NCBI RefSeq assembly: GCF_030296015.1
Contig: NZ_AP027368.1
Location: 4,450,839 to 4,514,838 of the forward strand
Source: Ferrimonas sp. YFM
GTDB taxonomy: Bacteria > Pseudomonadota > Gammaproteobacteria > Enterobacterales > Shewanellaceae
Direction: 5' to 3'
Length of the DNA stretch: 64,000 nucleotides
The notes beneath the pieces are model-generated. The model did not search any database and was not told the DNA's origin. It saw only the letters and a list, made by a program, of their open reading frames with translations. This document shows positions 6,882 through 41,072 of this stretch, one piece after another. Position numbers and translations under genes: made by a program. Within the stretch, counting starts at the first letter, position 1, and each line of letters starts with the position of its first letter.

Positions 6882-7556
6882 ATGGCCGAATCCCAACGTC
6901 AACTGACCCTGGCAGACCAGCTGGCTCACAAGCTGCAAGTGGCCATAGTCCAGGGCGAGATCTCTGCCGGCAGCAAGATCAATGAACAGGAGCTGGCCGC
7001 ACGCTACGGCGTCAGCCGCGGCCCTCTGCGGGAAGCCCTGCAGAAACTGGAACGGCGCCGCCTGGTGGTTAAGGCGCCCCACATCGGTGCCAGGGTCGCC
7101 CAACTGACCCCGGAAGAGCTGGGAGACCTCTACCAAGTTCGGGCCGAACTTGAAGCCATGGCCTGCCGCCTGGCCGCCAGCCGCATCAGCGCCAGCCAGC
7201 TGGCCCAGTTGCAGCTGCTGCTCAAACGCCAAGAAAAGGTGTTCACCGATCAGAGCGGCGACTACGCCCTGTTTGACGACATCGACTTTCACCTGGGCAT
7301 CATTCACGCCAGTGGCAACCAGACCCTGATCCACACCCTGACCGACGACCTTTACCACCTGCTGCAGATGTACCGCAACCAGTGCAGCAGTGGTCGCCGT
7401 CCCATGGAAGCCCTGGCCCAACACCGACGAATTCTGGACGCCATCGCCGACGGCGATGGTGAGCTTGCCGCCCTGCTGATGCGCCGCCACATCGAGTCTG
7501 GCCGCGCCAACACAGAGCGGGTACTGAGAAACCAAATGGAGGAGATTTCAGGATGA
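6882..7556 (+). CDS. GntR-family (FCD subfamily) regulator of propionate catabolism
   Basis: 224-aa regulator. An N-terminal winged helix ([20 protein letters not shown] is the recognition region, residues ~36-55) is followed by an FCD ligand-binding domain with metal-type residues in [16 protein letters not shown]. The ATG at 6882 is preferred to the in-frame GTG at 6849 because family N-termini begin close to this point. The gene overlaps prpB by 4 bp (ATGA), so it is autoregulated with the operon. The same gene order with a GntR regulator occurs in Shewanella. The ligand is probably a methylcitrate-cycle intermediate (inference). Confidence 0.9.
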
Positions 7557-8437
7557 CCATCCCAACCCCGGGCCAGCGTTTTCGCGACGCCGTAGCCAAC
7601 GCCAAGCCGCTGCAGATTGTCGGCACCATCAACGCCTACATGGCCCTGATGGCCGAACAGAGCGGCCATCAGGCCCTGTACCTCTCCGGTGCCGGGGTGG
7701 CCAACGCCTCCTTTGGCCTGCCGGATCTGGGCATGACCTCCATGAACGACGTGGTGATCGACGCCAGTCGCATCACCGCCGCCACCGATCTGCCCCTGCT
7801 GGTGGACATCGACACCGGCTGGGGCGGCGCCTTCAACATCGCCCGCACCATCCGCGAGTTCGAGCGTGCCGGCGTGGCCGCAGTGCACATGGAAGACCAG
7901 GTGGCCCAGAAGCGCTGTGGTCACCGCCCCAACAAGGCGGTGGTGAGCGTGGAGGAGATGTGCGACCGCATCAAAGCGGCGGTGGATGCCCGCCGTGACG
8001 ACAGCTTCGTCATCATGGCCCGTACCGACGCGGTGGCGGTCGAGGGACTGGAGAGCGGCATCGAGCGGGCTCAGGCCTACCTGGAGGCCGGAGCCGACAT
8101 GATCTTCGCCGAAGCCCTGACCGAGCTGGATCACTACCGTCAGTTCAAGGCCCAGGTGAAGGCGCCGATCCTGGCCAACATGACCGAGTTTGGTAAGACC
8201 GAACTGTTTGGCAAAGAGGAGCTGTTCGAGGCCGGCGCCGACATGGTGCTCTACCCTCTGTCCGCCTTCCGCGCCGCCAATGCCGCCGCCCTCAACGTCT
8301 ATGAGGCGCTTAAGACCGACGGTCATCAGCGCAGCCAGGTTGAGAACATGCAGACCCGCATGGACCTGTACAAATTCCTCGGCTATCACGACTACGAGCA
8401 GAAACTGGATCAGCTGTTCGCCGACAGCAAGGCGTAA
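7553..8437 (+). CDS. prpB: 2-Methylisocitrate lyase
   Basis: 294-aa member of the isocitrate lyase/PEP mutase superfamily. It cleaves 2-methylisocitrate to pyruvate and succinate, the last step of the 2-methylcitrate cycle for propionyl-CoA use. The active-site loop motif KRCGH occupies residues 120-124, with the catalytic cysteine at C122. VDIDTGWGG holds the Mg-binding aspartates, and MARTDA follows near residue 160. The start codon overlaps the regulator stop, and prpC follows after 44 bp. Confidence 0.97.
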
Positions 8438-8481
8438 CCCATCCAGTCCAAAGAGCAACTTCAGGAGAGAAGGAAAGAATC

Positions 8482-9606
8482 ATGGTAGATAAAGCACTTG
8501 GAGGCGCCGGCCTCCGCGGCCAAAGCGCCGGTGAAACCGCCCTCTGTACCGTTGGCAAGTCCGGCACCGGACTCACCTACCGCGGCTACGACATCGCCGA
8601 ACTGGCGGACAAAGTCAGCTTCGAAGAGGTGGCCCATCTGCTGCTCAAGGGGCACCTGCCCAACGCCCAGGAGCTGACCGCCTACCGCGAGAAGCTGAAG
8701 AATTTGCGCGGCCTGCCTCAACCTCTGAAAACCGTGCTGGAGCAGATCCCCGCCGACGCCCATCCCATGGACGTCATGCGCACCGGCTGCTCCATGCTGG
8801 GCAACCTGGAAACCGAAGACAGCTTCGACCAGCAGGGTGAGATGGCCGATCGTCTGTTGGCGGCCTTCCCCTCCATCATCTGTTACTGGTACCGCTACAG
8901 CCACGACGGCGTGCGCATCGTCACCGAGACCGAAGATGAGCAGATCGGTGCCCACTTCCTGCGTCTGCTGCACGGCAAGGCCCCCAGCGAACTGCATGCC
9001 AAGGTGATGGACGTCTCGCTGATCCTCTACGCCGAGCACGAGTTCAACGCCTCCACCTTCACCGCCCGGGTGTGTGCCTCCACCCTGTCCGACATGCACT
9101 CCTGCGTCACCGGTGCCATCGGCTCCCTGCGTGGCCCCCTGCATGGCGGTGCCAACGAGGCGGCCATGGAGCTTATCGAGGATATGAAGGATGAGCAGGA
9201 CGCCATCAATATCCTCAAGCAGAAGCTGGTCAACAAAGAGAAGATCATGGGCTTCGGCCACGCCATCTACCGGGAGTCCGACCCCAGGAACGCCATCATC
9301 AAGGGCTGGTCTGCCAAGCTGGCGGAAGAGTACGGCGACGACCGTCTCTACCGGGTGTCTGTGGCCTGTGAAGATCTGATGTGGCAGGAGAAGAAGCTGT
9401 TCTGTAACGCCGACTTCTTCCACGCCTCCGCCTATCACTTCATGGGGATCCCCACCAAGCTGTTCACCCCCATCTTCGTCTGCTCCCGCCTGACCGGCTG
9501 GGCCGCCCACGTGATGGAACAGCGGGCCAACAACCGCATCATCCGCCCGAGCGCGGACTACACAGGCGAAGAGCCTCGCAGTGTACCCGAGCTGAGCCAG
9601 CGCTAA
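8482..9606 (+). CDS. prpC: 2-Methylcitrate synthase
   Basis: 374-aa citrate-synthase-family enzyme condensing propionyl-CoA with oxaloacetate to 2-methylcitrate. The catalytic residues fall in the expected places: His in GPLHGGANE near residue 220, His in MGFGHAIYRESDPRN near residue 257, and Asp in ADFFHASAY near residue 311. The short length and its place between prpB and acnD distinguish it from the housekeeping GltA. An AGGAGAGAAGGAA region before the ATG gives a strong ribosome-binding site. Confidence 0.97.
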   Translation: MVDKALGGAGLRGQSAGETALCTVGKSGTGLTYRGYDIAELADKVSFEEVAHLLLKGHLPNAQELTAYREKLKNLRGLPQPLKTVLEQIPADAHPMDVMRTGCSMLGNLETEDSFDQQGEMADRLLAAFPSIICYWYRYSHDGVRIVTETEDEQIGAHFLRLLHGKAPSELHAKVMDVSLILYAEHEFNASTFTARVCASTLSDMHSCVTGAIGSLRGPLHGGANEAAMELIEDMKDEQDAINILKQKLVNKEKIMGFGHAIYRESDPRNAIIKGWSAKLAEEYGDDRLYRVSVACEDLMWQEKKLFCNADFFHASAYHFMGIPTKLFTPIFVCSRLTGWAAHVMEQRANNRIIRPSADYTGEEPRSVPELSQR

Positions 9607-9623
9607 GCCGCCCCCAGCCCAGT

Positions 9624-9643
9624 GGGCCGCCGTCCGGCGGCCC
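9624..9643 (+). other. Intercistronic stem-loop between prpC and acnD
   Basis: Perfect 8-bp stem (GGGCCGCC / GGCGGCCC) with a 4-base GTCC loop and no T-run, in the 62-bp gap after prpC. Likely roles are mRNA stabilisation or processing that sets the relative levels of PrpBC and AcnD-PrpF; it is not a classical terminator. Confidence 0.7.
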
Positions 9644-9668
9644 GGATTTCACTCTTTGGGTAGAGACT

Positions 9669-12281
9669 ATGAACACAGAATTCCGCAAACCCCTGCCCGG
9701 CACCGGCCTCGATTACTTCGACACCAAAGCCGCGGTAGAGGCCATCGTTCCGGGCAGCTACGCCACCCTGCCCTACACCTCCAGGGTGCTGGCCGAGCAG
9801 CTGGTACGCCGCTGCGACCCGGCCACGCTAGACGACGCCCTGGGGCAGATCATCCACCGCAAACGCGACCTGGACTTCCCCTGGTACCCGGCTCGGGTGG
9901 TGTGCCACGACATCCTGGGCCAGACCGCCCTGGTGGATCTGGCCGGCCTGCGTGACGCCATTGCCGATCAGGGCGGCGACCCCGCCAAGGTCAACCCTGT
10001 GGTGCCCACCCAGCTGATCGTCGACCACTCACTGGCGGTGGAACACGCTGGCTTCGATCCGGACGCGTTTGAGAAGAACCGCGCCATCGAGGATCGCCGC
10101 AACGAGGACAGATTCCACTTTATCGAGTGGACCAAGACCGCCTTCAAGAACGTGGACGTGATCCCCGCCGGTAACGGCATCATGCATCAGATCAACCTGG
10201 AGAAGATGTCCCCGGTCATTCAGTCCAGGGACGGCGTCGCCTTCCCCGACACCTGTGTCGGCACCGACAGCCACACTCCCCATGTGGATGCCCTCGGGGT
10301 GATCGCCATCGGCGTCGGTGGCCTGGAAGCGGAAAACGTGATGCTGGGGCGCGCCTCCATGATGCGCCTGCCGGAGATCGTCGGCGTGCGCCTGACCGGC
10401 AAGCGTCAGCCTGGGATCACCGCCACCGACATCGTGCTGGCGATCACCGAGTTCCTGCGCCAGCAGCGGGTGGTCTCCGCCTACCTGGAGTTCTTCGGCG
10501 ACGGCGCCGCGGATCTCACCATCGGCGACCGCGCCACCATCTCCAACATGACCCCGGAGTTCGGCGCCACCGCCGGCATGTTCTACATCGACCAGCAGAC
10601 TCTGGACTACCTGACCCTCACCGGCCGGGATCCGGATCAGGTGAAACTGGTGGAGCAATACGCCAAGACCACCGGGCTGTGGGCCGATGACCTGCGCGAT
10701 GCCGACTATGAGCGGGTGCTTGAGTTCGACCTGTCCAGCGTCTGCCGCAACATGGCCGGCCCCTCCAACCCCCATCGCCGACTGCCCACGGCCGATCTGG
10801 CCGAGCGCGGCATCGCCACCGACCTGGCTGCGGCCCAGGCCCAGGAAGCCGACGGCAAGATGCCCGACGGCGCGGTGATCATCGCCGCCATCACCAGCTG
10901 CACCAACACCTCCAACCCCAGGAACGTGGTGGCCGCCGGCCTGGTGGCCAAGAAGGCCAACGAGCTGGGACTGGTGCGCAAACCCTGGGTGAAATCCTCC
11001 TTCGCCCCAGGCTCCAAGGTGGCTCAGCTCTACCTGGAGGAGGCGGGACTGCTGCCTGAGCTGGAAAAGCTGGGCTTTGGCATCGTCGCCTTCGCCTGCA
11101 CCACCTGTAACGGCATGAGTGGCGCCCTGGACCCGGTGATTCAGCAGGAGATCATCGACCGCGACCTGTACGCCACCGCCGTGCTGTCCGGCAACCGCAA
11201 CTTCGATGGCCGCATCCACCCCTACGCCAAGCAGGCGTTCCTGGCCTCGCCACCCCTGGTGGTGGCCTACGCCATCGCCGGCACCGTGCGGTTCGACATC
11301 GAACAGGATGTGCTGGGCCATGACCCCCAGGGCAATCCGGTAACCCTCAAGGATCTCTGGCCCTCGGACGAGGAGATCGACGCCATCGTCGGCCAACATG
11401 TGAAGCCGGAGCAGTTCCGCCAGGTGTACGAGCCCATGTTCGATCTCAGCGTCGACTATGGTGAGGACAACGACCCTCTGTACGACTGGCGCCCCATGAG
11501 CACCTACATCCGCCGCCCCCCCTACTGGGAGGGTGCCCTGGCGGGCGAGCGCAGCCTCAAAGGGATGCGCCCCCTGGCGGTGCTGGGTGACAACATCACC
11601 ACCGACCACCTCTCCCCCTCCAACGCCATCCTGGCCAGCTCTGCCGCCGGCGAGTACCTGGCGAAGATGGGCCTGCCGGAGGAGGACTTCAACTCCTACG
11701 CCACCCACAGGGGCGATCACCTCACCGCCCAGCGAGCTACCTTCGCCAACCCCAAGCTGCTCAATGAGATGGTGCGGGATGAGCAGGGTGAGATCCGTCA
11801 GGGATCCCTGGCTCGCATCGAGCCTGAGGGTCAGGTCACCCGCATGTGGGAAGCCATTGAAACCTACATGGATCGCAAACAGCCACTGATCATCGTCGCC
11901 GGCGCCGACTACGGTCAGGGTTCCAGCCGTGACTGGGCCGCCAAAGGGGTCCGCCTGGCCGGGGTCGAGGCGATCGTCGCCGAGGGTTTCGAACGCATCC
12001 ACCGCACCAACCTGGTGGGCATGGGCGTGCTGCCCCTGGAGTTCAAACCGGGCACCACCCGACTGACCCTGGGGCTGGATGGCAGCGAGACCTACGACGT
12101 CATCGGCCAGCGCACCCCGGGGGCGACCCTGGCACTGCTGATCCACCGAGCCGACGGCAACACCCTGGAAGTGCCGGTGATCTGTCGCCTGGATACCGCC
12201 GAAGAGGTCTCCGTCTATGAGGCGGGTGGCGTACTGCAACGTTTCGCCAAGGACTTCCTGGCCTCGGAAGCGGCCGGCTAG
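9669..12281 (+). CDS. acnD: Fe/S-dependent 2-methylcitrate dehydratase
   Basis: 870-aa aconitase-family enzyme that dehydrates 2-methylcitrate and, with PrpF, replaces PrpD in this cycle. The [4Fe-4S] ligands are the cysteine of SCTNTSNPRN and the CTTC pair in FACTTCNGMSG. The C-terminal swivel domain carries the substrate-binding GADYGQGSSRDWAA segment. Its length matches AcnD and is slightly shorter than AcnA. Pairing with prpF directly downstream is diagnostic of the AcnD/PrpF variant. No prpD is present in the window. Confidence 0.96.
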   Translation: MNTEFRKPLPGTGLDYFDTKAAVEAIVPGSYATLPYTSRVLAEQLVRRCDPATLDDALGQIIHRKRDLDFPWYPARVVCHDILGQTALVDLAGLRDAIADQGGDPAKVNPVVPTQLIVDHSLAVEHAGFDPDAFEKNRAIEDRRNEDRFHFIEWTKTAFKNVDVIPAGNGIMHQINLEKMSPVIQSRDGVAFPDTCVGTDSHTPHVDALGVIAIGVGGLEAENVMLGRASMMRLPEIVGVRLTGKRQPGITATDIVLAITEFLRQQRVVSAYLEFFGDGAADLTIGDRATISNMTPEFGATAGMFYIDQQTLDYLTLTGRDPDQVKLVEQYAKTTGLWADDLRDADYERVLEFDLSSVCRNMAGPSNPHRRLPTADLAERGIATDLAAAQAQEADGKMPDGAVIIAAITSCTNTSNPRNVVAAGLVAKKANELGLVRKPWVKSSFAPGSKVAQLYLEEAGLLPELEKLGFGIVAFACTTCNGMSGALDPVIQQEIIDRDLYATAVLSGNRNFDGRIHPYAKQAFLASPPLVVAYAIAGTVRFDIEQDVLGHDPQGNPVTLKDLWPSDEEIDAIVGQHVKPEQFRQVYEPMFDLSVDYGEDNDPLYDWRPMSTYIRRPPYWEGALAGERSLKGMRPLAVLGDNITTDHLSPSNAILASSAAGEYLAKMGLPEEDFNSYATHRGDHLTAQRATFANPKLLNEMVRDEQGEIRQGSLARIEPEGQVTRMWEAIETYMDRKQPLIIVAGADYGQGSSRDWAAKGVRLAGVEAIVAEGFERIHRTNLVGMGVLPLEFKPGTTRLTLGLDGSETYDVIGQRTPGATLALLIHRADGNTLEVPVICRLDTAEEVSVYEAGGVLQRFAKDFLASEAAG

Positions 12282-12301
12282 ACCCAATCAGAACAAGCCA
12301 T

Positions 12302-12323
12302 GGGGCGTGGCCTGCCGCGCCCC
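12302..12323 (+). other. Intercistronic stem-loop between acnD and prpF
   Basis: A GGGGCG / CGCCCC stem with a 10-base loop lies between the acnD stop and the prpF Shine-Dalgarno sequence (AAAGGAG, ~12327-12335). No T-run follows. Its proximity to the ribosome-binding site could modulate prpF translation. Confidence 0.55.
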
Positions 12324-12339
12324 GGTAAAAGGAGAAACC

Positions 12340-13530
12340 ATGGCGTTTCCACCGCAAATCAAAATCCCCGCCACCTACATGCGCGGCGGCACCAGCAAGG
12401 GGGTGTTCTTCAGCCTCAGCGATCTGCCGGAAGCCGCCCAGCAACCGGGACCGGCCCGGGACGCCCTGCTGCTGAGGGTGATCGGCAGCCCGGACCCTTA
12501 CGGTAAACACACCGATGGCATGGGCGGCGCCACCTCCAGCACCAGTAAGACGGTGATTCTGGCCAGCAGCACCCAGCCGGGCCACGATGTGGACTACCTG
12601 TTCGGCCAGGTGGCCATCGACAAGCCCTTTATCGACTGGAGTGGCAACTGTGGCAACCTCACCGCCGCGGTAGGCGCCTTTGCCATCAGCAATGGCCTGG
12701 TGGACCCGAGCCGCATTCCCGACAACGGCATTGCCACGGTGCGGATCTGGCAGGCCAACATCCACAAGACCATCATCGCCCAGGTGCCCATCACCGACGG
12801 TCAGGTGCAGGAGACTGGCGACTTTGAGCTGGATGGGGTCACCTTCCCCGCCGCCGAGGTGGAGGTCAGCTTCCTGGATCCCGCCGACGGCGACGGCGCC
12901 ATGTTCCCCACCGGCAATTTGGTGGATACCCTGGAGGTGCCCGAGTCCCTGGTCCCCGGAGGCAAACTGGAAGCGACCCTGATCAACGCCGGCATCCCTA
13001 CCCTGTTCTTCAACGCCGAGGCCCTGGGTTACGACGGCACCGAACTGCAGGAGGCGATCAACGCCGATCCCGCCGCCCTGGAACGCTTCGAGGCGCTGCG
13101 TGCCATAGGTGCCGTCAAGATGGGGCTGATCAAGGAGGTGGGCGAAGCGGCCAGCCGCCAGCACACCCCGAAGATCGCCTTCGTCGCCCCACCGAAAAGC
13201 TACACCGCCTCCAGCGGCAAGGGGATTGACGCCGACAGCATCGACCTCAATGTGCGGGCCCTGTCCATGGGCAAGCTGCACCACGCCATGATGGGCACCG
13301 CCGCCGTGGCCATCGGCACCGCCGCCGCCATCCCGGGCACCCTGGTGAACCTGGCCGCCGGTGGCGGCGAGCGCAGCTTCGTGCGCTTCGGCCACCCCTC
13401 GGGCACCCTCAAGGTGGGTGCCCAGGCCAGCCAGCAGAATGGCCAGTGGCGGGTGGACTCCGCCATCATGAGCCGCAGCGCCCGGGTGCTGATGGAGGGC
13501 TGGGTCAGAGTTCCCGGCGACACCCTGTAA
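12340..13530 (+). CDS. prpF: AcnD-accessory protein PrpF (2-methylaconitate isomerase family)
   Basis: 396-aa PrpF family protein with the diaminopimelate-epimerase-like fold. It isomerises 2-methylaconitate produced by AcnD so the cycle can continue. The N-terminal YMRGGTSKGVFF and the DWSGNCGNLTAAVG segment carry the conserved lysine and cysteine regions of the family. The ATG at 12340 follows a good ribosome-binding site and replaces a longer reading that would overlap acnD. It is the last gene before a terminator, so it closes the prp operon. Confidence 0.95.
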   Translation: MAFPPQIKIPATYMRGGTSKGVFFSLSDLPEAAQQPGPARDALLLRVIGSPDPYGKHTDGMGGATSSTSKTVILASSTQPGHDVDYLFGQVAIDKPFIDWSGNCGNLTAAVGAFAISNGLVDPSRIPDNGIATVRIWQANIHKTIIAQVPITDGQVQETGDFELDGVTFPAAEVEVSFLDPADGDGAMFPTGNLVDTLEVPESLVPGGKLEATLINAGIPTLFFNAEALGYDGTELQEAINADPAALERFEALRAIGAVKMGLIKEVGEAASRQHTPKIAFVAPPKSYTASSGKGIDADSIDLNVRALSMGKLHHAMMGTAAVAIGTAAAIPGTLVNLAAGGGERSFVRFGHPSGTLKVGAQASQQNGQWRVDSAIMSRSARVLMEGWVRVPGDTL

Positions 13531-31409: not shown

Positions 31410-32180
31410 TCAGAGCTTAGGGAGCTGGCGCACATCGTTATAGCCATGAAACTTCAGGCAACGCTCACAGTTTTTATTCGGCTTGTAATGTTTGTCAAAA
31501 AATAGCTCAATTTTATTGGCTAGATTCTCAAACTTGGTTTCAGTTGCCACCTCATTCCACTTATATCGATTCATCATCTCCGCCAAATGTCGATAATAAG
31601 TTGGGTTCTTGTCGGTTAAATATTTGCTTTCCATGAGTTGACTTTCATAAGAGGAAAGACTGCCCGCCATAAAGAAATAGATCGCCTGAGTTAATTCCAT
31701 CACCTGAGCCTCTGTAGCCTGCAGGGCACCGCTTTGCTGAGCCTGCTCTATGTGCAGATGCACCCGGCTCCAGAACAGGTTACAACGCTCCTTCAGCAGA
31801 GCGATCTTTTCGTCACTGGCCATCTGCCAGAACATGGAGTTGATGGACACCACCCGCAGAATATTGAAGGTCTGGCTGCGAGACACCGAGATCAAGGAGA
31901 ACACCGCCGGCACCGCCGCCCGCTCGAGCTCAGTCAGTTCAGGATGTTGGTCGAGAAACAGCGGCATGTAGTTGGAGGTGCAGTTGCGCAGGAACAGGCA
32001 CACCAGCACGTCCTCCTTGGATTGGAAGAACTTGTACAGGGTGTGGTTGGAACAGGAGGCTTCTTTGGCCATCTGAGCAAAGCGGAAGGAGACCACACCA
32101 TTTTCATCCACCAGGCTCTCCGCCACATTCAGCAACTCATTACAGCGCATGATATCCAGATTGGTTTTGGGGCAGTGCAT
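31410..32180 (-). CDS. TetR-like regulator of the flavoprotein cluster
   Basis: 256-aa TetR-type protein. The HTH reads FAQMAKEASCSNHTLYKFFQ and the ligand domain is long. The C-terminus has two cysteines in NKNCERCLKFHG, a CxxC-like pair that could bind metal or sense redox. It is divergent from the flavoprotein gene (32410), so it is the likely regulator of that operon. A TetR gene beside a flavocytochrome/tetraheme pair is also remembered from Shewanella oneidensis. The ATG at 32180 has GAGGTGACC before it. Confidence 0.85.
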   Translation of the reverse strand: MHCPKTNLDIMRCNELLNVAESLVDENGVVSFRFAQMAKEASCSNHTLYKFFQSKEDVLVCLFLRNCTSNYMPLFLDQHPELTELERAAVPAVFSLISVSRSQTFNILRVVSINSMFWQMASDEKIALLKERCNLFWSRVHLHIEQAQQSGALQATEAQVMELTQAIYFFMAGSLSSYESQLMESKYLTDKNPTYYRHLAEMMNRYKWNEVATETKFENLANKIELFFDKHYKPNKNCERCLKFHGYNDVRQLPKL

Positions 32181-32338
32181 GGTCACCTCGGCACTAAATT
32201 ATTTTTTGGCGGCATTACTGTGTCATAAGGGATGACTGATTTTCGCTACCCAGCCCACAATTTTTATTTCAAAAAACCCACCAGAAACTTTTTCTGAGAC
32301 GCCCTCACGAAAACTTTTTTCACTGAATTATCACTGTG

Positions 32339-32402
32339 ATCTCGCGCTTATTTTCCCTGCTCACTCCGGCGCTACAGTAATTTCACATTCACTGCGCGAG
32401 AT
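32339..32402. promoter_or_regulatory. Inverted repeat upstream of the flavoprotein gene
   Basis: ATCTCGCGC (32339-32347) and its exact complement GCGCGAGAT (32394-32402) flank 46 bp; the second arm ends 7 bp before the ATG. The wide spacing suggests two operator half-sites for a dimer pair or a looped repressor rather than a hairpin. It may bind the divergent TetR-like protein. The rest of the 229-bp gap is AT-rich promoter DNA. Confidence 0.5.
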
Positions 32403-32409
32403 AAACACT

Positions 32410-33915
32410 ATGCATAACAGACGTTCGTTTATGAAACTCGGCGCCGGCATGGCCGCCGGCGCCATGATGCCCATGGTGGCATCCGCCAAGTGTGGCGATG
32501 AGCCCACCCAATGGGACTCCGAGCACGAAGTCATCATCATCGGTTCCGGCTTTGCCGGCCTGGCCGCCGCCGTTGAGGCGATGCGCAAGGGTGCCAAAGA
32601 TGTGGTGGTCTTCGAAAAAATGGGGGTCTACGGCGGCAACAGCACCCTAAACGCCGGCCAAGCCTGCTTCGCCGGCACCGAGCTGCAGAAAAAACTGGGC
32701 ATCAAGGACAGCGCCGAGCTGATGGTAAAAGACCAGCTGAAGTCTGGCCGTGGCATCGCCAGCGAAACCCTGCTGCGCCACAGCGCCGAGCTGGGTCCCT
32801 ACATCTACCAGATGACCAAGGATTGCGGCTGCGTCTACCGTGACCACATCATCACCACCGGCGGCACCAGCGCCACTCGCAGCCACCAGGTTGTGGAGCG
32901 CTCCGGTTCCGGTTTCATCCGTCCCATGCTGGACACCGCTCGCAAGATGGGCGTGAAGACGCACATCCGCCACAAGTTCGAGCACCTGATCCGTGATGCC
33001 AAAGGTCGCGTTATCGGCATCAAGGTGCGTAAGGGTTACCACTTCGGTCACGAAGACAGCGGTGAGGTGATCAGCGTTAAGGCCAACCGAGGTGTGATCA
33101 TTGCTACCGGTGGCTTTGGCTACAACATCAACTTCCGCATGGCGCAGGATCCGACCCTGACCTCCGAAGTGGGCTGCACCAACGCCAAAGGCGCCACCGG
33201 CGACGGCCTGATCGAGATGCTGGCTGCGGGCGCGACCCCAGTGCACCTGGCCCACATCCAGTCCGGCCCCTGGGCCTCTCCAGACGAGGGTGGCTTCGGA
33301 TACGGTGCAGGCTTCTCCCTGTACAACTTCCCTCACTCCATCGCCATTGACCGCAACACCGGCCAGCGTTTCATGAACGAAATCGCCGACCGTAAGACCC
33401 GTGCCGACCTGGAACTGCAGCGTCGCGACCAGGATGGCAACCCCAACCCTGCCCTGCTGATCGCCCCCAAGCACGAGGCCAAGAAAGACCCCTCCATGCA
33501 CAACGTCCTCAAGTACAACGTCGCCTGGGAATTTGACTCTGTGGAAGCCATTGCCAAGCACTTCAATGTACCCCTGGCACCACTGAAGCAGCAGATTGCC
33601 GACTGGAACGGCTTCGTAGAAAACGGCGAAGACACCCAGTTTGGTAAACGCATGGACGCCGGTCGCGGCATCAAGCTGACCGCTCCCTTCATCGTTCAGC
33701 GCCTGTGGCCCAAGGTGCACTACTGCCAGGGTGGCATCCAGATCAACACCAAGGCCGAAGTACTGGCCGCCAAGACCGGCAAGCCGATCCCGGGCCTGTA
33801 CGCCGCTGGTGAGGTCACCGGTGGTATCCACGGAGTGAGCCGACTCGGTGGCTGCTCTACCCCTGAATGTATGGCGTTCGGCGTGACCGCTGCCCGCTCA
33901 ATCATGGAGGCCTAA
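32410..33915 (+). CDS. Tat-exported fumarate-reductase-like flavoprotein (flavocytochrome c flavin subunit)
   Basis: 501-aa FAD-dependent reductase. The Tat signal is RRSFMK (residues 4-9), cleaved near ASA-K27. The FAD motif GSGFAG occupies residues 45-50, with an FAD_binding_2 body. By comparison with Shewanella FccA, the catalytic Arg acid maps to R328 (NEIADRKTRAD), and substrate-binding His and Arg map to H474 and R478 (GGIHGVSRLGG). The dicarboxylate-binding His and Thr-Glu of FccA are replaced by an IQSGPWASPDE region (283-293), and the usual GGN after the last Arg is GGC. It has no heme or FMN domain; hemes come from the tetraheme protein encoded 5 bp downstream. Probable role: reduction of an unsaturated organic acid in the periplasm, substrate unknown. 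Confidence 0.88.
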   Translation: MHNRRSFMKLGAGMAAGAMMPMVASAKCGDEPTQWDSEHEVIIIGSGFAGLAAAVEAMRKGAKDVVVFEKMGVYGGNSTLNAGQACFAGTELQKKLGIKDSAELMVKDQLKSGRGIASETLLRHSAELGPYIYQMTKDCGCVYRDHIITTGGTSATRSHQVVERSGSGFIRPMLDTARKMGVKTHIRHKFEHLIRDAKGRVIGIKVRKGYHFGHEDSGEVISVKANRGVIIATGGFGYNINFRMAQDPTLTSEVGCTNAKGATGDGLIEMLAAGATPVHLAHIQSGPWASPDEGGFGYGAGFSLYNFPHSIAIDRNTGQRFMNEIADRKTRADLELQRRDQDGNPNPALLIAPKHEAKKDPSMHNVLKYNVAWEFDSVEAIAKHFNVPLAPLKQQIADWNGFVENGEDTQFGKRMDAGRGIKLTAPFIVQRLWPKVHYCQGGIQINTKAEVLAAKTGKPIPGLYAAGEVTGGIHGVSRLGGCSTPECMAFGVTAARSIMEA

Positions 33916-33920
33916 TCGCC

Positions 33921-34271
33921 ATGAAATCCACTGTAACTCTGTTTGCCGCCACCCTGGCCCTGACCCTGAGCTTTGGCGCCGCCGCCCAGAACAAGCGCGA
34001 CTACCACATGGACGTCTACGACGCCGGTTGTAAGACCTGCCACGACCAGGGCATGAAGCGCTTCCCATCCGATGAGGCCTGTTTGCAGTGCCACAGCATG
34101 GATGAGGTGGCCAAACAGACCGAACGCCACGGTGAGGTAGCCCGTCAAAACCCTCACGACAGCATGCACTACGGCAAGGAAGCCCCTTGTCAGGAGTGTC
34201 ATGGCGAGCACACCGCCAAGAAAGCGCTGTGCCAGGAATGCCACAACTTCGACTATCCGAAGTTCAAATAA
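33921..34271 (+). CDS. Periplasmic tetraheme cytochrome c
   Basis: 116-aa small cytochrome with a Sec signal peptide (cleaved near residue 22, GAAAQ). It has four CXXCH heme sites at residues 37-41, 54-58, 90-94 and 104-108. The spacing resembles the N-terminal heme domain of Shewanella flavocytochrome c (FccA), here encoded as a separate subunit. It would carry electrons from CymA-like or other periplasmic donors to the flavoprotein. It starts 5 bp after the flavoprotein stop and 21 bp before the cupin gene. Confidence 0.95.
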   Translation: MKSTVTLFAATLALTLSFGAAAQNKRDYHMDVYDAGCKTCHDQGMKRFPSDEACLQCHSMDEVAKQTERHGEVARQNPHDSMHYGKEAPCQECHGEHTAKKALCQECHNFDYPKFK

Positions 34272-34292
34272 CAACAACCTTCCGAGGAAACG

Positions 34293-35033
34293 ATGATGAA
34301 AAAACTCACTCTCACTCTTGCTGCTCTGATGGTTAGCGGTGCCGTATGCGCCGCCGACAAGCCAGCGGATCAACCCTGGCACAATGAGAAGCCTCTGCCT
34401 TACACCCCTTACGCACCCACCAAGCTGATGCCTCAGGTGTGTAAGCAGAAGCAGGCCCTGGCCTATCTGGAAGAGCTGAAGTCGGGTAAGAAGGACATCT
34501 ACACCGTTAAGTCCAACGACCACGGCGGTAAGGGTGCCAACGACTCTGGCTGGCTGACCTGGACCATCGACAACCCAGACAAGCTGATCCCCTGCCCCAA
34601 AGGCGGTGCTTCCGCCACCGAAGTGGGCATGTGCTGGAAAGAGCTGAACGACGAGCCTACCGTGATCGGTCTGGTGCGCGTGGCTCCCGGTACCGCCATC
34701 CCCCACTACCACCGCGAAATGGAGTGCTACTACGGTCTGAGCGGCGAGGGCCTGACCTGGTCCCAGGGTCGCATGCAGCACTTCCAGCCTGGTGATTACA
34801 TCGAGATCCCCTCCAAGGCGATGCACTACACCCCCAACACCTATGACGATCAGGATCTGATCTACATGTACTGGTTCCCTCAGGATGGCAAGTTCTCCAC
34901 CTTCAAGTACCAGTGGCCTCAGGATGTTGGCCCAGGTGAAACCCTGATGTTCGACTTCATCCCCTACACCCAGTCTCACGCCGTCCGTGAAGGCCGTGGT
35001 GGCTACGGCTTCGATGCGGTTCGTCCTCAATAA
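34293..35033 (+). CDS. Secreted single-domain cupin, DMSP-lyase-like metal site
   Basis: 246-aa protein with a Sec signal (cleaved near residue 20, AVCA-AD). The C-terminal half is one cupin barrel. PHYHREMECYYGLSGEG gives H138, H140, E144 and Y146, and PGDYIEIPSKAMH gives H178, a four-ligand metal site plus tyrosine. DMSP lyases of the DddW/Q type use this His-His-Glu-Tyr-His set with similar spacing, but it is also the general cupin pattern. Four Cys residues at about 50, 101, 114 and 145 may form disulfides. The two adjacent ATGs (34293, 34296) cannot be separated; GAGG is in range of both. The family assignment is uncertain. Confidence 0.7.
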   Translation: MMKKLTLTLAALMVSGAVCAADKPADQPWHNEKPLPYTPYAPTKLMPQVCKQKQALAYLEELKSGKKDIYTVKSNDHGGKGANDSGWLTWTIDNPDKLIPCPKGGASATEVGMCWKELNDEPTVIGLVRVAPGTAIPHYHREMECYYGLSGEGLTWSQGRMQHFQPGDYIEIPSKAMHYTPNTYDDQDLIYMYWFPQDGKFSTFKYQWPQDVGPGETLMFDFIPYTQSHAVREGRGGYGFDAVRPQ

Positions 35034-35066
35034 ATAAACGCCTTGTTTAGTTATCTCCAGGTTTAT

Positions 35067-35092
35067 GGCCGGCGCAAGCCGGCCATCTTTTC
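35067..35092 (+). terminator. Hairpin after the secreted cupin gene
   Basis: Stem GGCCGGC / GCCGGCC with a small loop followed by ATCTTTT. It may be a partial terminator, so the DUF3299-like and porin genes could be expressed at a lower level from the same promoter. Confidence 0.65.
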
Positions 35093-35104
35093 CAGGTAAG
35101 CACC

Positions 35105-35575
35105 ATGAAACTGACTCCACTGCTACTGCTGGCCGCCCTGCTCGCCCTGCCAACTCAGGCACAACCCCAGTCCCTGCTATGGCCCGAGCTGGCTGGCAGC
35201 AACACCGACGCCCAATCGGTGTTTGATCGCATCAATCCGGCCCTGGACGGCAAACAGGTCGTGATCCCCGGCTTTATTATCGAGAACAGTGTGGCCGCCG
35301 CCCTGCCCGGTCACGATCACGTGGACGCCCTGGCCTCCTCGGCACCCACCATCACCGTTCTCAGCCCTCAGCCGGAGATCTGTCTGCACAAGCCGCCGCC
35401 ACCGGCCAATCAGCTGATCCAGGTGAAGCTCAAGCCGGACGTCACCCTGGAGGCGGAACAGGGCAAACCTGTCTACCTCATCGGTGAGCTGCAGGTGGAT
35501 AAGCACCTGTCGGGCCTGTTCAGCACCGCCTACACCCTGTGGGTCTCCGCGGTGGAGCCCTATCCGGTGCCCTAG
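35105..35575 (+). CDS. Secreted DUF3299-like protein
   Basis: 156-aa protein with a clear Sec signal (residues 1-19, cleaved at TQA-QPQ). The CLHKPPPPANQ stretch (near residue 98) and the preceding GFIIENSV region match the pattern of DUF3299 proteins, whose members are small periplasmic proteins of unknown role. The usual segment between them is shorter and diverged here. The gene sits between the cupin and porin genes in the same orientation. No enzymatic motif is visible. Confidence 0.7.
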   Translation: MKLTPLLLLAALLALPTQAQPQSLLWPELAGSNTDAQSVFDRINPALDGKQVVIPGFIIENSVAAALPGHDHVDALASSAPTITVLSPQPEICLHKPPPPANQLIQVKLKPDVTLEAEQGKPVYLIGELQVDKHLSGLFSTAYTLWVSAVEPYPVP

Positions 35576-35606
35576 CCTGGAATTTCCACGTCAGGAATTG
35601 AATAAA

Positions 35607-36689
35607 ATGAATAAGATGAAATTGGTCAGCCTGCTGGCATTGACCCAGTTTACCCTCACCCCGCTGGTGCACGCCGCGCCCGCCGATGACGGCATGAGTT
35701 TCGGCGGCTTCCTGAGAGCCAACTACGGCTGGAAGGACTACAGCGACGCCTCCAAGGACAAGGGCGGTGATTTCGCCTTCGACGCCCTCTCCCTCACCTA
35801 TGACGGAATGATCGACGGCGTGGGCCTGAGCGCCGATTATCGCATCGCCAACGGCCTCAACTACGTCAAGCGCGCCTACGGCTACATGAACTTAGGTGAC
35901 ACCACCCAGGTTCAGGTGGGCATCGTCAAGGTGCCGTTCGGCAAACAGGGCTTTGTCTCCAACTCCTACTGGTTCAGCACCAACTACTACCTCGGCTTCG
36001 AAGACGACTACGATGCCGGGGTGAAGATGGTGTACGACCGTGATCAGTGGCACCTGGATCTGGCCTACTTCGCCAGCGCCGAGTACGGCCCGGGCACCGC
36101 CGACCGCTACGCCGCCGACATCATCGGCGACAACGAAGAGAGCAATCAGATTAACGCCCGCCTGGTGTACACCCTGCCTCTGGACCAGGGCCACCTGAAG
36201 CTGGGTGCCTCCGTTGAGGCAGGCCAGCTGTATCACGCCGAGCTGTCCGACAACGGCGATCGCCAGGCCTACGCGGTGCACGCCGATCTGCAGCTGGGTC
36301 ACTGGAACCTGCAGGCCCAGGTCACCGACTACAACATCGACAGTGCCGACAAGGCGGATACCGTGACCGTCGGCGTGGTGGGCGCCCGCTACGACATCGC
36401 CGCCGAAGCGACCGGTTACAACCTCAACCTGGCCCGTCACTTTGACACCAGCTGGGGAGGCTTCACCCTCTACAACGACTACGGCCTGGTCTCACCGGAC
36501 GGCAAGGATCAGGACGACTCCATGCAGAACGTCTTTGGCGTGTCGGTGAACCGAGGTCCCATCTGGGCCTACTTCGACTACATTGTCGGCGACAACATGA
36601 CCTTTGCCGGCGGCCCTGGCGTTGGCCTACCCAACCCGGACTCCCCCACCGACAGCCGCATCAACATCAACGTCGGTTACTACTTCTAA
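35607..36689 (+). CDS. Outer-membrane porin of the flavoprotein cluster
   Basis: 360-aa beta-barrel protein. The signal peptide ends near VHA-AP (residue ~23) and the mature protein begins with FGGFLRANYGW. Repeated alternating aromatic/glycine strands run to NINVGYYF, ending in Phe. The pattern is that of phosphate-selective or general substrate porins without a recognised ligand. The ATG at 35607 (AGGA upstream) replaces a longer reading overlapping the previous gene. Its place at the end of the reductase cluster suggests it admits that cluster's substrate. Confidence 0.85.
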   Translation: MNKMKLVSLLALTQFTLTPLVHAAPADDGMSFGGFLRANYGWKDYSDASKDKGGDFAFDALSLTYDGMIDGVGLSADYRIANGLNYVKRAYGYMNLGDTTQVQVGIVKVPFGKQGFVSNSYWFSTNYYLGFEDDYDAGVKMVYDRDQWHLDLAYFASAEYGPGTADRYAADIIGDNEESNQINARLVYTLPLDQGHLKLGASVEAGQLYHAELSDNGDRQAYAVHADLQLGHWNLQAQVTDYNIDSADKADTVTVGVVGARYDIAAEATGYNLNLARHFDTSWGGFTLYNDYGLVSPDGKDQDDSMQNVFGVSVNRGPIWAYFDYIVGDNMTFAGGPGVGLPNPDSPTDSRININVGYYF

Positions 36690-36697
36690 CCCCCGCA

Positions 36698-36733
36698 GCG
36701 GGTGACTCCTCTCTTGGTCGCCCGCTCTTTTGT
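36698..36733 (+). terminator. Terminator after the cluster porin
   Basis: Stem built from GCGGG-T-GAC and GTC-G-CCCGC around a CTCTCT loop, followed by TCTTTT. It closes the flavoprotein cluster. Confidence 0.75.
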
Positions 36734-36869: not shown

Positions 36870-39197
36870 ATGAGCTTTACCCGCCGCCGCTTTCTGCACA
36901 CCTTGGTGGTTTCCGCCGGGGCCATGACCCTCTCCAGCCTCACCGGCTGTTCCAACGACAACCCGGACGACAAGGCCACAGTGCTGCCGGAGATCATGCC
37001 GGAGTACTTTCCTCAGTCGGTGATGTCCGGCGATCCTCGCCCCGATTCGGTGATCCTCTGGACCCGGGCCGTGGACGGCGACGGGGATCTGTCCCTGACC
37101 CTGCAGCTCTCCACCGACCCCAGCTTCCAGGAAGTCATGGTGGAGGAGGCCTTTACTGCCGCCGCCGCCAATGGCCACTGTCTGAAGGTGCGGGTCACAG
37201 ACCTGTCCCCCTACAGCCACTACTACTACCGTTTCCTCTTTGAGAAAGAGGGCAAATTGGTCAGCTCCCGCATCGGCCGCACCAAGACCGCCCCGGCCGC
37301 CGATGCCGACGTGGAGGTGAAGTTCGGCTTTGCCTCCTGCCAGGACTACCTGGGCCGCTACTACAACACCTACCTGTCTCTGCTGGCCCGGGATGATCTG
37401 GATTTTGTCCTCCATCTGGGGGACTACATCTATGAGACCAGCGGCGATGCCAGCTTCCAGGCCACCGACGGCGAACGCCAGTTCGAGTTCCGCGACGGCG
37501 ACGGTGCACTGACCATAGGCACGGGCGACAGCGCCTTCCAGGCCGCCGCCAGCGTCGACAACTACCGCCAGCTGTATGAGGTCTACCGGGCTGACCCGGT
37601 TTTGCAGGAGCTGCATGAGCGCTACCCCCTGGTGGCCATCTGGGATGACCACGAGTTCTCCGACGACAGCTGGCAGACCAACGCCACCTATCTGGATGGC
37701 GCCGCCGGCGAGGAGCAGACCAGCCGCAAACGCAACGCCGAGCAGGTCTACTTCGAATTCATGCCCATCGACCATGCCGCCCCCCATGGCGACAGCGGCA
37801 GCGGCGCCCTGGAGGTGAGCGAACAGCAGCTGTTCCCCAACACCAAGATCTATCGCGACCTGAGGTTCGGCCAGCACCTGCACCTGGCGATGACCGACTA
37901 CCGCACCTTCCGCCCGGATCACCTGATCCCAGAGGATGCCTTCCCCGCCAGCGTGGTGATGGACAGCGCCACCCTGACCGCCTTCCTCGGTGCCCAAGGG
38001 ATGCCTCAGGCAGCCATCGACGCCACCCTGGCCCAGATGAGCCCTGTGGTGGACATAGACGCCGACGCCCTGGCGCCCTATAAAACCGCCTTCGTGGAGA
38101 TCTTCACCGGCCTCTACACTCAGGAGCTGATGACCCGACTGGGGCTGGATCAGCCAAGTGCCCTGGCCCAGGCAGCCGAGCGCGCCACCGCCGCCATCAC
38201 CGGCAAGCTCACCTCCAGCTACCTCAACCTGGTGTTGGTTCAGGCCCAGGCCACCCTGCCCGATGGCCACCCACTCAAGGCACTGCCCCCCTTACCGGAA
38301 ACCGGCGTGGGCACCGGCCTGGCCTACTACACCCTGGGCAAGACCACATTGTTCTCCGATCTGGGCGCCCGCTACCTGGTGATTCGGGAGACCTTTGATC
38401 TCTACGCCGGCTACCTGGAGTTTATGGCCCAGCAGCAGGGCGGCAGCGTGCAGACCCCCTATGACCAGGCCCAATTCAGCTGGCTGCAGGGGCTGCTGAC
38501 CCAGTCCGACGCCACCCACAAGGTGATGGCCAGCTCGGTCTCCTTCGCGCCTCTGCTGGCGGACCTCTCCCCCAGCCGCGCCGACAGCGGTGTGGCGGAT
38601 CTGGAGGCGGTACTGGACTCTGACCTGGTGCCCGCCGCCCTGAAGCAGCGGTTCTACCTGAACGTTGACCACTGGGACGGATTCCCCCAGTTCAAGGGCG
38701 GCCTGATCAATGACCTGCTCAGCGCCACCGGCACCCTGACCGTCTCCGGAGACATCCACGCCAGCTTCGTCACCCAGCACCCGGCCAACCCCAACACAGG
38801 CCTGGCCTCGGTGGACTTCACCACCTCCTCGGTCAGCTCCGGCACCTTCGGCAGCTTCCTGGACGATGGCCTCAACGGACTGCTGGCCCAACTCGGGGAC
38901 GTGCCACCCGAGGTGAGCCAGCTGAAGTACTTCTTCGACACCATCGCCCTGACCGCCAGCCAGCGGGACGACGTCAGCTCCAAGTTGATGTTCTCCCGCA
39001 TGTGGGAGCATGGGGTGAGTGTGGCCACCGCTTCCGCCAGCGGCTTTGCGGTGGAGTACTTCAACGTGCCCACGGTGTGGGATGGGGTCAACATGACCAA
39101 GACCTCCTTCTACAACAACCGCGCCGCCTTCCTGGCCAATGTCCGCACTCACAGGTTCCACTGGGACGGCAGCGAACTGCAGATGCTGCCCGCCTAA
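36870..39197 (+). CDS. PhoD-like alkaline phosphatase, Tat lipoprotein
   Basis: 775-aa phosphatase/phosphodiesterase of the PhoD family. The N-terminus has both a Tat motif (RRRFLH, residues 5-10) and a lipobox (LTGC), so it is exported folded and lipid-anchored. The N-terminal Ig-like PhoD_N domain precedes the catalytic domain, where SCQDY, HLGDYIYE, AIWDDHEFSDD and SGDIHASF carry the Fe/Ca ligands. It is longer than Bacillus PhoD because of insertions around residues 340-520. Its neighbour is the pst operon, consistent with phosphate scavenging. Confidence 0.9.
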   Translation: MSFTRRRFLHTLVVSAGAMTLSSLTGCSNDNPDDKATVLPEIMPEYFPQSVMSGDPRPDSVILWTRAVDGDGDLSLTLQLSTDPSFQEVMVEEAFTAAAANGHCLKVRVTDLSPYSHYYYRFLFEKEGKLVSSRIGRTKTAPAADADVEVKFGFASCQDYLGRYYNTYLSLLARDDLDFVLHLGDYIYETSGDASFQATDGERQFEFRDGDGALTIGTGDSAFQAAASVDNYRQLYEVYRADPVLQELHERYPLVAIWDDHEFSDDSWQTNATYLDGAAGEEQTSRKRNAEQVYFEFMPIDHAAPHGDSGSGALEVSEQQLFPNTKIYRDLRFGQHLHLAMTDYRTFRPDHLIPEDAFPASVVMDSATLTAFLGAQGMPQAAIDATLAQMSPVVDIDADALAPYKTAFVEIFTGLYTQELMTRLGLDQPSALAQAAERATAAITGKLTSSYLNLVLVQAQATLPDGHPLKALPPLPETGVGTGLAYYTLGKTTLFSDLGARYLVIRETFDLYAGYLEFMAQQQGGSVQTPYDQAQFSWLQGLLTQSDATHKVMASSVSFAPLLADLSPSRADSGVADLEAVLDSDLVPAALKQRFYLNVDHWDGFPQFKGGLINDLLSATGTLTVSGDIHASFVTQHPANPNTGLASVDFTTSSVSSGTFGSFLDDGLNGLLAQLGDVPPEVSQLKYFFDTIALTASQRDDVSSKLMFSRMWEHGVSVATASASGFAVEYFNVPTVWDGVNMTKTSFYNNRAAFLANVRTHRFHWDGSELQMLPA

Positions 39198-39206
39198 CCT
39201 AAGCTG

Positions 39207-39244
39207 GGCTCTGTGATCAGGCCGACTCTCCGGAGTCGGCCTTT
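39207..39244 (+). repeat. 38-bp duplicated terminator, copy 1
   Basis: The hairpin GGCCGACTC-TCC-GGAGTCGGCC with CTTT after it stands 3' of phoD. An exact 38-bp copy (this region) occurs at 42652-42689 after pstB. It acts as the phoD terminator. Confidence 0.9.
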
Positions 39245-39393
39245 GTCGTTTAGCGCCCCACCTGCCGCAAGCGCTTCCAGCACGCCTGACCCAGATCAAG
39301 CCACCTTCAACTACATTTCGCTACCGTTTGCCCCGTTAGCCGGGAGAACTTACCCTTGTCAGCCTCTTTAAGACCGATGAAAAGGTAAGAAAA

Positions 39394-40230
39394 TTGTTTC
39401 GCTTTTTTAAAGCCTTAGGCTTATCTGCACTCTCCCTATCCCTGACTCTGCTGCCGGCTCAGGCGACCGAATTGTCGGACTTCGATGGCCTGTCCGGCAC
39501 CCTGAACATCGCCGGCGGTACCGCCCACATCCCTGTGATGAAGAGTGCCGCCCGCACCATCATGTCCAGAAACTCTGACATTCGCATCACCATTGCCGGC
39601 GGCGGTTCAGGTGTTGGCGCCCAGCAGGTGGGTAAAGGGTTGGTGGATATCGGCAATACCGGTCGTGCCCTCAAGGCCTCCGAGCAACAGATGGGACTGA
39701 TCTCCTACCCCTTTGCCATCGACGGAGTGGCGGTGATTGTTCACCCTGACAACCCGGTCAGTGACCTGAGCTTCGAACAGGTGGCCGACATCTATGCAGG
39801 AAAGATCCGCAACTGGAAGCTGGTGGGAGGGGAAGACCGCCCCATCAACCTGTTCACCCGGGATGAAGCCAGTGGCACCCGCTCCGTGTTCGTCAAGAAA
39901 CTGCTTCACAAGGGCCCGGTAGCAACCACCGCCAATGTTGTGCCCTCCAATGGCGGCATGAAAGCGGCGATCTCCCGCGATCCCGGCGCCATCGGCTACA
40001 GCAGTGTCGGCTACATCGATGCCATGGTTAAAGCCCCCAGGCTGGCCGGCGTCGCGCCCAGCAACCAGGCCTGTGCCTCCGGGGAGTACCCCGTGGTGCG
40101 AAAACTCATTATGAACACCAAAGGCGAGGCCACCGGGCTGACCAAAACCTTCATCGGTTACCTCTACAGCGATGAGGGCAGCAAGTTCATCCAACAGGCC
40201 GGATACATCCCTCTGCCAGCCCATCCATGA
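39394..40230 (+). CDS. pstS: Phosphate ABC transporter substrate-binding protein
   Basis: 278-aa periplasmic protein. The signal peptide is followed by TLNIAGGTAHIPVM and AGGGSGVGAQQV, with FTRDEASGTRSVF near residue 160, all typical of the PstS-like 2 branch. The best start is TTG at 39394, preceded by AAAGGTAAG; no ATG is suitably placed. It overlaps pstC by 4 bp (ATGA). Confidence 0.88.
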   Translation: MFRFFKALGLSALSLSLTLLPAQATELSDFDGLSGTLNIAGGTAHIPVMKSAARTIMSRNSDIRITIAGGGSGVGAQQVGKGLVDIGNTGRALKASEQQMGLISYPFAIDGVAVIVHPDNPVSDLSFEQVADIYAGKIRNWKLVGGEDRPINLFTRDEASGTRSVFVKKLLHKGPVATTANVVPSNGGMKAAISRDPGAIGYSSVGYIDAMVKAPRLAGVAPSNQACASGEYPVVRKLIMNTKGEATGLTKTFIGYLYSDEGSKFIQQAGYIPLPAHP

Positions 40231-41072
40231 GAGCAGCCTCCCCCTGGCCACAGCAGTGGTTGGCGGTGATCTCAGCCCTGGTGCTGGTGTCGCTGTCGCT
40301 GCTGGTGCTGTTTATCCTGTACTTTGCCCTGCCGGTATTGGTGTCAGAGGGCGGGGCAGTAATGACCCTGCTCTGGCGCCCCGAGCAGGGGCATTTTGGG
40401 ATTCTGCCAATGCTGTGCACCTCCATATTGCTGGCGCTGGCAGCCCTGATGCTGGCGTATCCTCTGGCCCTGGGTATCGCCGGAAGCTGCCTGCTCTACA
40501 AAAGGCATTGGTGGGGTCGCTGGCTATTGCGAACCATACGCATGATGGCTGGGATTCCCACTGTGGTGCATGGCATTGCAGCGCTGTTTATCCTGATTCC
40601 CTGGCTGCGGGAGGCCTTTGGTCAAGGTTCCGGGTTCAGTATGCTGGCCGCTGTGCTGGTGATGGTGCTGCTGATTCTGCCGGTGATGGTGATGACCCTA
40701 GAGACCCACTGCGCTCCCAAGTTGCAGCGGCTGTCACTGCCAGCCGCATGTCTGGGGTTCTCTCAGGCGCAGGTGCTCTGGCACCTGGTGTTGCCCCAAT
40801 CACGGCCCATCCTGACCAGTGCCGCCCTGCTGGGGTTTGCCCGAGCCATAGGTGACACCCTCCTCCCTCTGATGCTGGCAGGCAATGCCCCCCAGTTCCC
40901 CGGCTCTCCCATGGACTCGGTCAGGGCCCTGACCGCACACATCGGCCTGGTTCTCTCCACCGAGCATGGCAGCACACTGCATAACTCTCTGTTTGTGGCC
41001 GGTTTGCTGTTATTGCTGGTGAGCGTATCGGTCTCACTGCTGCTACGGCGACTGATGAGGGCCAACTCATGA
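40227..41072 (+). CDS. pstC: Phosphate ABC transporter permease PstC
   Basis: 281-aa inner-membrane permease with six predicted helices. The EAA loop is near LGFSQAQVLWHLVLPQSRPI, and LLGFARAIGDTLLPLMLAGN lies in the following transmembrane segment, as in PstC. Overlapping ATGA junctions with pstS and pstA show tight operon structure. The first ~12 residues are short, which is usual for this smaller PstC type. Confidence 0.9.
   Translation: MRAASPWPQQWLAVISALVLVSLSLLVLFILYFALPVLVSEGGAVMTLLWRPEQGHFGILPMLCTSILLALAALMLAYPLALGIAGSCLLYKRHWWGRWLLRTIRMMAGIPTVVHGIAALFILIPWLREAFGQGSGFSMLAAVLVMVLLILPVMVMTLETHCAPKLQRLSLPAACLGFSQAQVLWHLVLPQSRPILTSAALLGFARAIGDTLLPLMLAGNAPQFPGSPMDSVRALTAHIGLVLSTEHGSTLHNSLFVAGLLLLLVSVSVSLLLRRLMRANS

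Follow-up and report, generated by a model that had tools for sequence, protein, structure and literature searches.

The window analysed here, a stretch of 64,000 nucleotides (nt), lies in the 4.66-Mb, one-contig genome of Ferrimonas sp. YFM. The cassette under study (31410-36726) was delimited from the list of open reading frames (ORFs) and by profile searches. It consists of a divergent TetR-like ORF, five plus-strand ORFs for a flavoprotein, a tetraheme cytochrome c, a cupin, a DUF3299 protein and a porin-like protein, and a terminator-like hairpin. We consider it fairly probable that the operon works anaerobically as a self-contained unit to 'eliminate and respire': a DddK-like onium lyase, the cupin, would feed an acrylate-type reductase.

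The original prediction had proposed a 'cleave and respire' module running on dimethylsulfoniopropionate (DMSP). Its lyase-plus-reductase mechanism was supported by the gene order and the cupin fold, and it appears to be the best reading because the reductase belongs to a DddY-linked clade, a predicted exported, DMSP-lyase-like cupin stands in the slot of the lyase DddY, and a porin is present. DMSP itself was not established as the substrate, given the co-occurrence of DddY, a PF16867 score below the cut-off and differences in the reductase pocket. While the pairing of DddY with a flavocytochrome is known already, the putatively exported cupin in the lyase slot would be a new variant of that module.

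Cupin fold, active site and gene order

The cupin matched DddK best in the PDB, both by phmmer (5.8e-7) and by profile search (4.3e-8). When a model of the cupin (mean pLDDT, the predicted local distance difference test, 77) was searched with Foldseek, DddK took ranks 1-6 (E 8e-9 to 2e-8), and the first fold after it among the 595 PDB matches at E <=0.001 was RemF (7e-7). No similarity to DddY was detected: 5y4k and 5xkx were not among the 24 PDB matches at E <=10. The residues H138, H140, E144, Y146 and H178 were present as originally listed. The earlier comparison was with DddW-type lyases; in the PDB searches, the nearest DMSP lyase with a solved structure was DddK.

According to excerpts of PMC10686828, the metal ligands of DddK are His56, His58, Glu62 and His96, the base is Tyr64, the carboxylate is bound by Tyr122, and an aromatic cage is formed by Tyr21, Trp26, Phe108, Trp110 and Phe117. 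In the alignment, H138, H140, E144 and H178 coincided with the four ligands, and Y146 and Y206 with Tyr64 and Tyr122; all six were invariant in 24 family rows. At the cage positions, W194 (Trp110) was invariant in the same rows and F201 (Phe117) was found in at least 90% of them. As a control, the 15 Cupin_2 matches of the genome were inspected: this residue pattern occurred in only the 3 cassette cupins (Phe or Trp being accepted at the Phe117 place), and HxHxxxExY was found in none of the other 12 matches.

According to the passages available from PMC5395565, high conservation of two motif-1 tyrosines sets cupin DMSP lyases apart from other cupins. Compared with DddK (PDB 6a53, 5tfz), the window cupin shares the core, the four ligands and the Tyr64, Tyr122, Trp110 and Phe117 equivalents, and differs in being about 110 residues longer (246 amino acids, against 136 in the DddK chain), with a core identity of 28%. 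Of the two motif-1 tyrosines it has Y146 and presumably, going by the DddQ positions, not the earlier one, which we take to be the DddK arrangement. DddK is a short single-domain protein and is not known to be exported, whereas the window cupin carries an N-terminal extension and an export signal (for all cassette proteins, export signals were assigned by reading).

In the sister genus, the Pfam DMSP_lyase model found longer frames, mostly of 414-428 amino acids, one of which was DddY (NCBIfam 782 bits against a cut-off of 650; PDB 5y4k, E 6.7e-63). DddY was present in 61 genomes and 13 of its loci were examined. The flavoprotein and the tetraheme cytochrome preceded DddY in all 13, and a related porin followed in nine. 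The window's own genome has such a locus, with AcuI, LysR, flavoprotein, tetraheme cytochrome, DddY and porin (L156; C1:3416000-3435900), and a similar one was found in a second Ferrimonas-like genome (L157). The cupin thus occupies the slot of DddY in an otherwise matching gene order; next to the window operon, no acuI could be recognised. Excerpts of PMC3338564 report dddY in F. balearica and, for Shewanella sp. MR-4, dddY accompanied by fccA and fccB. The MR-4 locus has genes for a flavocytochrome c, a tetraheme cytochrome and a periplasmic DMSP lyase in common with the window, and the related loci analysed here share the window's gene order. It differs in its lyase, DddY of about 414 amino acids, where the window has the cupin followed by DUF3299. 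The parts consulted of PMC3338564, PMC5395565 and PMC10686828 make no mention of a cupin in the DddY slot.

The cassette recurred widely. When 394 genomes of the order were surveyed at E <=1e-10, cupin relatives were found in 11 genomes, at 18 places. For the 17 places other than the window, wide flanking regions were examined, two of which overlap, and homologues of TetR, flavoprotein, tetraheme cytochrome, cupin and porin stood together in 15 of them; at L038 the porin homologue was lacking, and L043, which lies close to the end of its contig, had cupin and porin only. The named collection yielded 52 cupin loci, 20 of the window type (77-99% identity) and 32 others; the Ferrimonas futtsuensis cupin was 99% identical to that of the window. 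The flavoprotein and tetraheme genes lay at most 6 kb upstream of the cupin in 20/20 window-type loci and 27/32 others (47/52 overall). A DUF3299 gene followed the cupin in 20/20 and 0/32, respectively, and a porin was found downstream in 17/20 window-type loci and on either side in 22/32 others. A comparison of the cupin and flavoprotein trees for congruence had few deep groups to work with. On viral contigs, two stretches fitted a pattern, with no relative among them, and plasmids gave a single distant cupin match covering 39% of the query.

Three further observations were made on the cupin family. A window-type relative of 44% identity (G450:C85:83304-84038) contains one in-frame stop. The cassette cupin in a record titled Marinobacter nauticus DP3N21-5 (L118) is very near that of Ferrimonas balearica DP5N7-6, and the record may be misnamed. 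In Falsirhodobacter sp. alg1 (L111:9881-12401), a family cupin lies directly upstream of a gene for an alginate lyase (PF08787), and no reductase was found in its neighbourhood.

Reductase clade and related modules

The flavoprotein and the tetraheme cytochrome had been predicted to form a split flavocytochrome c, and matches to TIGR01813 and Cytochrom_c3_2 in separate ORFs agreed with this. The flavoprotein has a Tat-type (twin-arginine translocation) start by reading, its match to Pfam TAT_signal being below the cut-off. A tree of 57 flavoprotein rows was built (quick search, midpoint root; several long branches were flagged elsewhere in the tree). In it, 12 window-type, 3 L028-type and 13 DddY-linked flavoproteins formed one group, with a support of 96 in the Shimodaira-Hasegawa-like approximate likelihood ratio test, apart from the other cupin-linked ones. 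Membership of the window flavoprotein in the DddY-linked, presumed acrylate-reductase clade is thereby supported. The DddY-linked pair is reportedly an acrylate reductase (S. woodyi ArdA).

When the sequences were mapped on FccA, R402, H504 and R544 were retained in both window-type and DddY-linked flavoproteins, and H365, M375 and T377 were lost in both, the window residues being G, G and G. We take the first set to be the C1-carboxylate site and the second the C4-carboxylate site. The motif HYCQGG was found in 28/28 window-type and 13/13 DddY-linked rows, and HYCMGG in the other cupin-linked rows, including the L028 type. UrdA and FccA resemble the window protein in the flavin domain and in the equivalents of R402, H504 and R544. 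They differ in that the window flavin protein is separate from its cytochrome and has neither H365, M375 and T377 of FccA nor the tyrosine of UrdA at the H365 place. Fumarate and urocanate were rejected as substrates of the reductase, since the required active-site residues are absent. Three NapC/NirT-type matches in the genome exceeded the cut-off and are possible feeders of the tetraheme cytochrome.

Related reductases in the same genome stand beside other lyases. Eleven flavocytochrome-type loci were examined (the window, L027, two in L028, L126, L156, L163, L164, L165, L166 and L167), and seven of them had a candidate lyase; at L164-L167 no lyase was recognised by ORF reading and comparison with a few references. 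One of these, L167 (9167-11115), holds a DddY-linked-type flavoprotein in two overlapping ORFs beside a tetraheme gene and is possibly a decaying copy.

In two modules, a PF00221-family lyase, exported by reading, accompanies the flavoprotein, tetraheme cytochrome and porin (L028:12170-17618 and L163:5016-12312). The L028 protein (14422-16101) lies between the tetraheme cytochrome and the porin and matched ergothionase best in the PDB (2.4e-61). The L163 protein (8362-10008) is upstream of the flavoprotein and the tetraheme cytochrome, with a porin 2.2 kb upstream, and matched ergothionase at 3.5e-86 and histidine ammonia-lyase at 2.9e-52. Its relatives were present in 54/146 family genomes at E <=1e-50, and a flavoprotein lay at most 1.5 kb away in 29 of the best 30 loci. 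For the L028 protein, phenylalanine or histidine ammonia-lyase was rejected as an identity: ergothionase was the sole PDB match at E <=1e-30, and the triad of the 4-methylideneimidazole-5-one (MIO) cofactor, Ala-Ser-Gly, was not seen in the alignment. Ergothionase (PDB 6s7j) is a lyase that removes an onium group. With homologues in comparable modules of this genome, it offers a parallel to the cupin and not a relative, its family being unrelated.

At a further candidate locus (L126:8273-15340; C1:4268272-4275339 of the same genome), a second exported cupin, above the DMSP_lyase cut-off and without the HxH motif, is accompanied by two regulators and a porin, and a fused flavocytochrome lies about 4.5 kb from the cupin; L127 has a similar gene set.

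Taken over Ferrimonas and Shewanella, these loci would fit a chassis of reductase, tetraheme cytochrome and porin with an exchangeable periplasmic lyase (DddY, ergothionase-like, or exported DddK-like cupin), with seven candidate modules in one genome serving a plug-in respiration of onium osmolytes. The cupins would then be new periplasmic onium lyases, some of which may release dimethyl sulfide (DMS), dimethyl sulfoxide (DMSO) or amines from substrates for which no role in anaerobic respiration is known so far. We put this broader proposal forward with reserve, at slightly under even chances.

Substrate and alternative explanations

Several results weigh against a DddK-like onium lyase coupled to an acrylate-type reductase. 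The structure-based search bore out a DddK-like fold. The Pfam model DMSP_lyase (PF16867) scored the cupin at 21.1 bits, below its cut-off of 27, and matched only 5/24 cupin family members at E 0.01. Quercetinase came close behind DddK in the profile search (3.4e-7). The DddK alignments span about 84-110 of the 246 cupin residues, at 27-28% identity, and leave the first ~110 residues unmatched. In the cage, Met192 aligns with Phe108, Tyr21 and Trp26 fall outside the alignment, and the L028 cupin has Trp at the Phe117 place. The reductase was absent at 5/52 cupin loci, two of them near contig ends (L116, L120) and three with at least 9 kb of sequence available on each side (L107, L111, L122). 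Conversely, five Shewanella window-type flavoprotein-tetraheme pairs had no cupin at the corresponding place, so the reductase may be useful alone. Four reductase pocket positions also differ, GAGF-SL in the window type against VSNY-SI in the DddY-linked type, which suggests a related, perhaps not identical, enoate. Lastly, DddY was present in 22/26 genomes with a window-type cupin and in 39/120 without (Fisher p 1.2e-6, relatedness not corrected). A replacement of DddY by the cupin is ruled out by this co-occurrence. A second DMSP lyase would be redundant in those 22 genomes, and either the substrates differ or each enzyme is used under different conditions.

In a narrower form of the proposed module, not exclusive of it, the cupin would be a true periplasmic lyase of DMSP or dimethylsulfoxonium propionate (DMSOP) and the operon a second DMSP-acrylate-propionate respiratory module for other concentrations or conditions than those of the DddY module. 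This is possible but rather doubtful: with DddK as the nearest solved structure, a reductase of the DddY-linked clade, a prp operon inside the window and the cleavage of DMSOP by the cupin DMSP lyases tested in PMC10686828 (as far as its excerpts go), it has to account for the DddY module in the same genome, the frequency of DddY in cupin genomes and a pocket unlike the DddY-linked one.

In a second explanation, the cupin would not be a lyase but an auxiliary isomerase, epimerase or hydrolase that turns the enoate or a precursor into a form that the reductase accepts. Cupins are catalytically diverse, the RemF cyclase, KdgF and sugar-phosphate isomerases were also among the Foldseek matches that align to the model, and the cupin is present in cassettes with differing reductases. 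We regard it as improbable in view of the invariant Tyr64 and Tyr122 equivalents, the position of the cupin in the DddY slot and the ergothionase-like lyase between the tetraheme cytochrome and the porin in L028. It is very unlikely that the cupin is a mere passenger in the operon, with a binding or oxygenase function unrelated to the chemistry of the reductase: the five reductase pairs without a cupin and the three solitary cupins would allow it, but 47/52 cupins lie near a reductase, the catalytic residue set is conserved, and one would hardly expect an oxygenase in a respiratory operon that seems to be anaerobic.

Operon layout and proposed function

The five plus-strand ORFs and the divergent TetR-like ORF were all found, as had been predicted, and the features of the locus are collected in Table 1. 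The gaps between the five ORFs are, in order, 5, 21, 71 and 31 nt, and co-transcription is likely. A related TetR was present in 16/17 wide cassette regions. The palindrome AGAAA-N3-TTTCT occurs once in the 64-kb window, in 18/21 window-type TetR-flavoprotein intergenic regions (the window counted in), and 26 times in 2.07 Mb of collected loci, which partly overlap; the scan omitted four window-type loci, of which L031 and L074 duplicate L076 and L029, while L081 and L082 have no TetR on their contigs. The porin-like protein had no Pfam or NCBIfam match; its homologues showed 36-65% identity in paralogous and DddY modules and 97% in the near-identical orthologous locus L029.

Table 1. Features of the cassette and the prp operon in the window
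Feature	Position	Strand	Evidence
TetR-family regulator, divergent	31410..32186	-	TetR_N E 1.4e-4, 22 bits, slightly below cut-off 24
Candidate operator, palindrome AGAAA-N3-TTTCT, between TetR and flavoprotein genes	32283..32295	.	palindrome scan
Tat-type flavoprotein, proposed enoate reductase, flavin half of split flavocytochrome c	32410..33915	+	TIGR01813 550.2 bits vs cut-off 285.45
Periplasmic tetraheme cytochrome c, would pass electrons to flavoprotein	33921 (ATG)..34271 (stop)	+	Cytochrom_c3_2 E 2.5e-11; four CXXCH by reading
Exported DddK-like metallo-cupin, proposed beta-elimination lyase, 246 amino acids	34293..35033	+	Cupin_2 E 2.2e-11
Perfect 9-bp GC-rich hairpin in the gap from cupin to DUF3299, may attenuate transcription or stabilise a 3' end	35065..35086	+	RNA fold of 35045-35100 -22.5 kcal/mol, z -5.0
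Exported DUF3299 protein (ZrgE family, OB-like (oligonucleotide/oligosaccharide-binding) fold), proposed metal supply to cupin	35105..35575	+	PF11736 54.8 bits vs cut-off 22
Outer-membrane porin-like protein	35607 (ATG)..36689 (stop)	+	by reading and gene company
Intrinsic-terminator-like hairpin directly after porin	36697..36726	+	consensus match, weak: 3 such sites found vs 5.4 in shuffles
prpB-prpC-acnD-prpF methylcitrate operon, separate, possible propionate sink	7553..13530	+	gene identification

The prp operon expected near the start of the window was likewise found, with prpB, prpC, acnD and prpF. Directly downstream of the cassette lies a gene for a PhoD-type phosphatase, followed by phosphate-ABC-transporter-like (ATP-binding cassette) genes by reading (36870-42631).

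The model of the DUF3299 protein matched a DUF3299 structure best in Foldseek (4hsp, E 7e-10), with OB-fold proteins next. In Vibrio parahaemolyticus, according to excerpts of PMC9817125, the family is represented by zrgE, part of a zinc operon under Zur control. The window protein shares its Pfam family with ZrgE and differs in lying in a respiratory operon. A His-rich C-terminal tail was present in 16/17 Shewanella window-type copies and in none of the three Ferrimonas copies. A paralogue in the window's genome has a ZrgA protein and an ABC protein close by. The DUF3299 protein probably metallates the exported cupin.

In the proposed mechanism, the porin would admit a small zwitterion to the periplasm, where the cupin would hold the substrate carboxylate on its metal ion, probably supplied by the DUF3299 protein. 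Y146 would take the alpha proton, and the cationic beta substituent, dimethylsulfonium or another onium group like it, would depart to leave an acrylate-type enoate. The tetraheme cytochrome would receive electrons from a CymA/NapC-type quinol dehydrogenase and hand them to the flavoprotein, which would reduce this enoate, and TetR would govern the operon.

If this is true, DMSP-type cleavage coupled to anaerobic respiration would be one case of a modular strategy and not a dddY curiosity, and assays could be directed at a new lyase family whose partner reductase is defined. Anoxic marine settings would have a further source of DMS, DMSO or methylated amines, and the lyase slot together with the reductase pocket would give a rule for predicting the substrates of many uncharacterised flavocytochromes.

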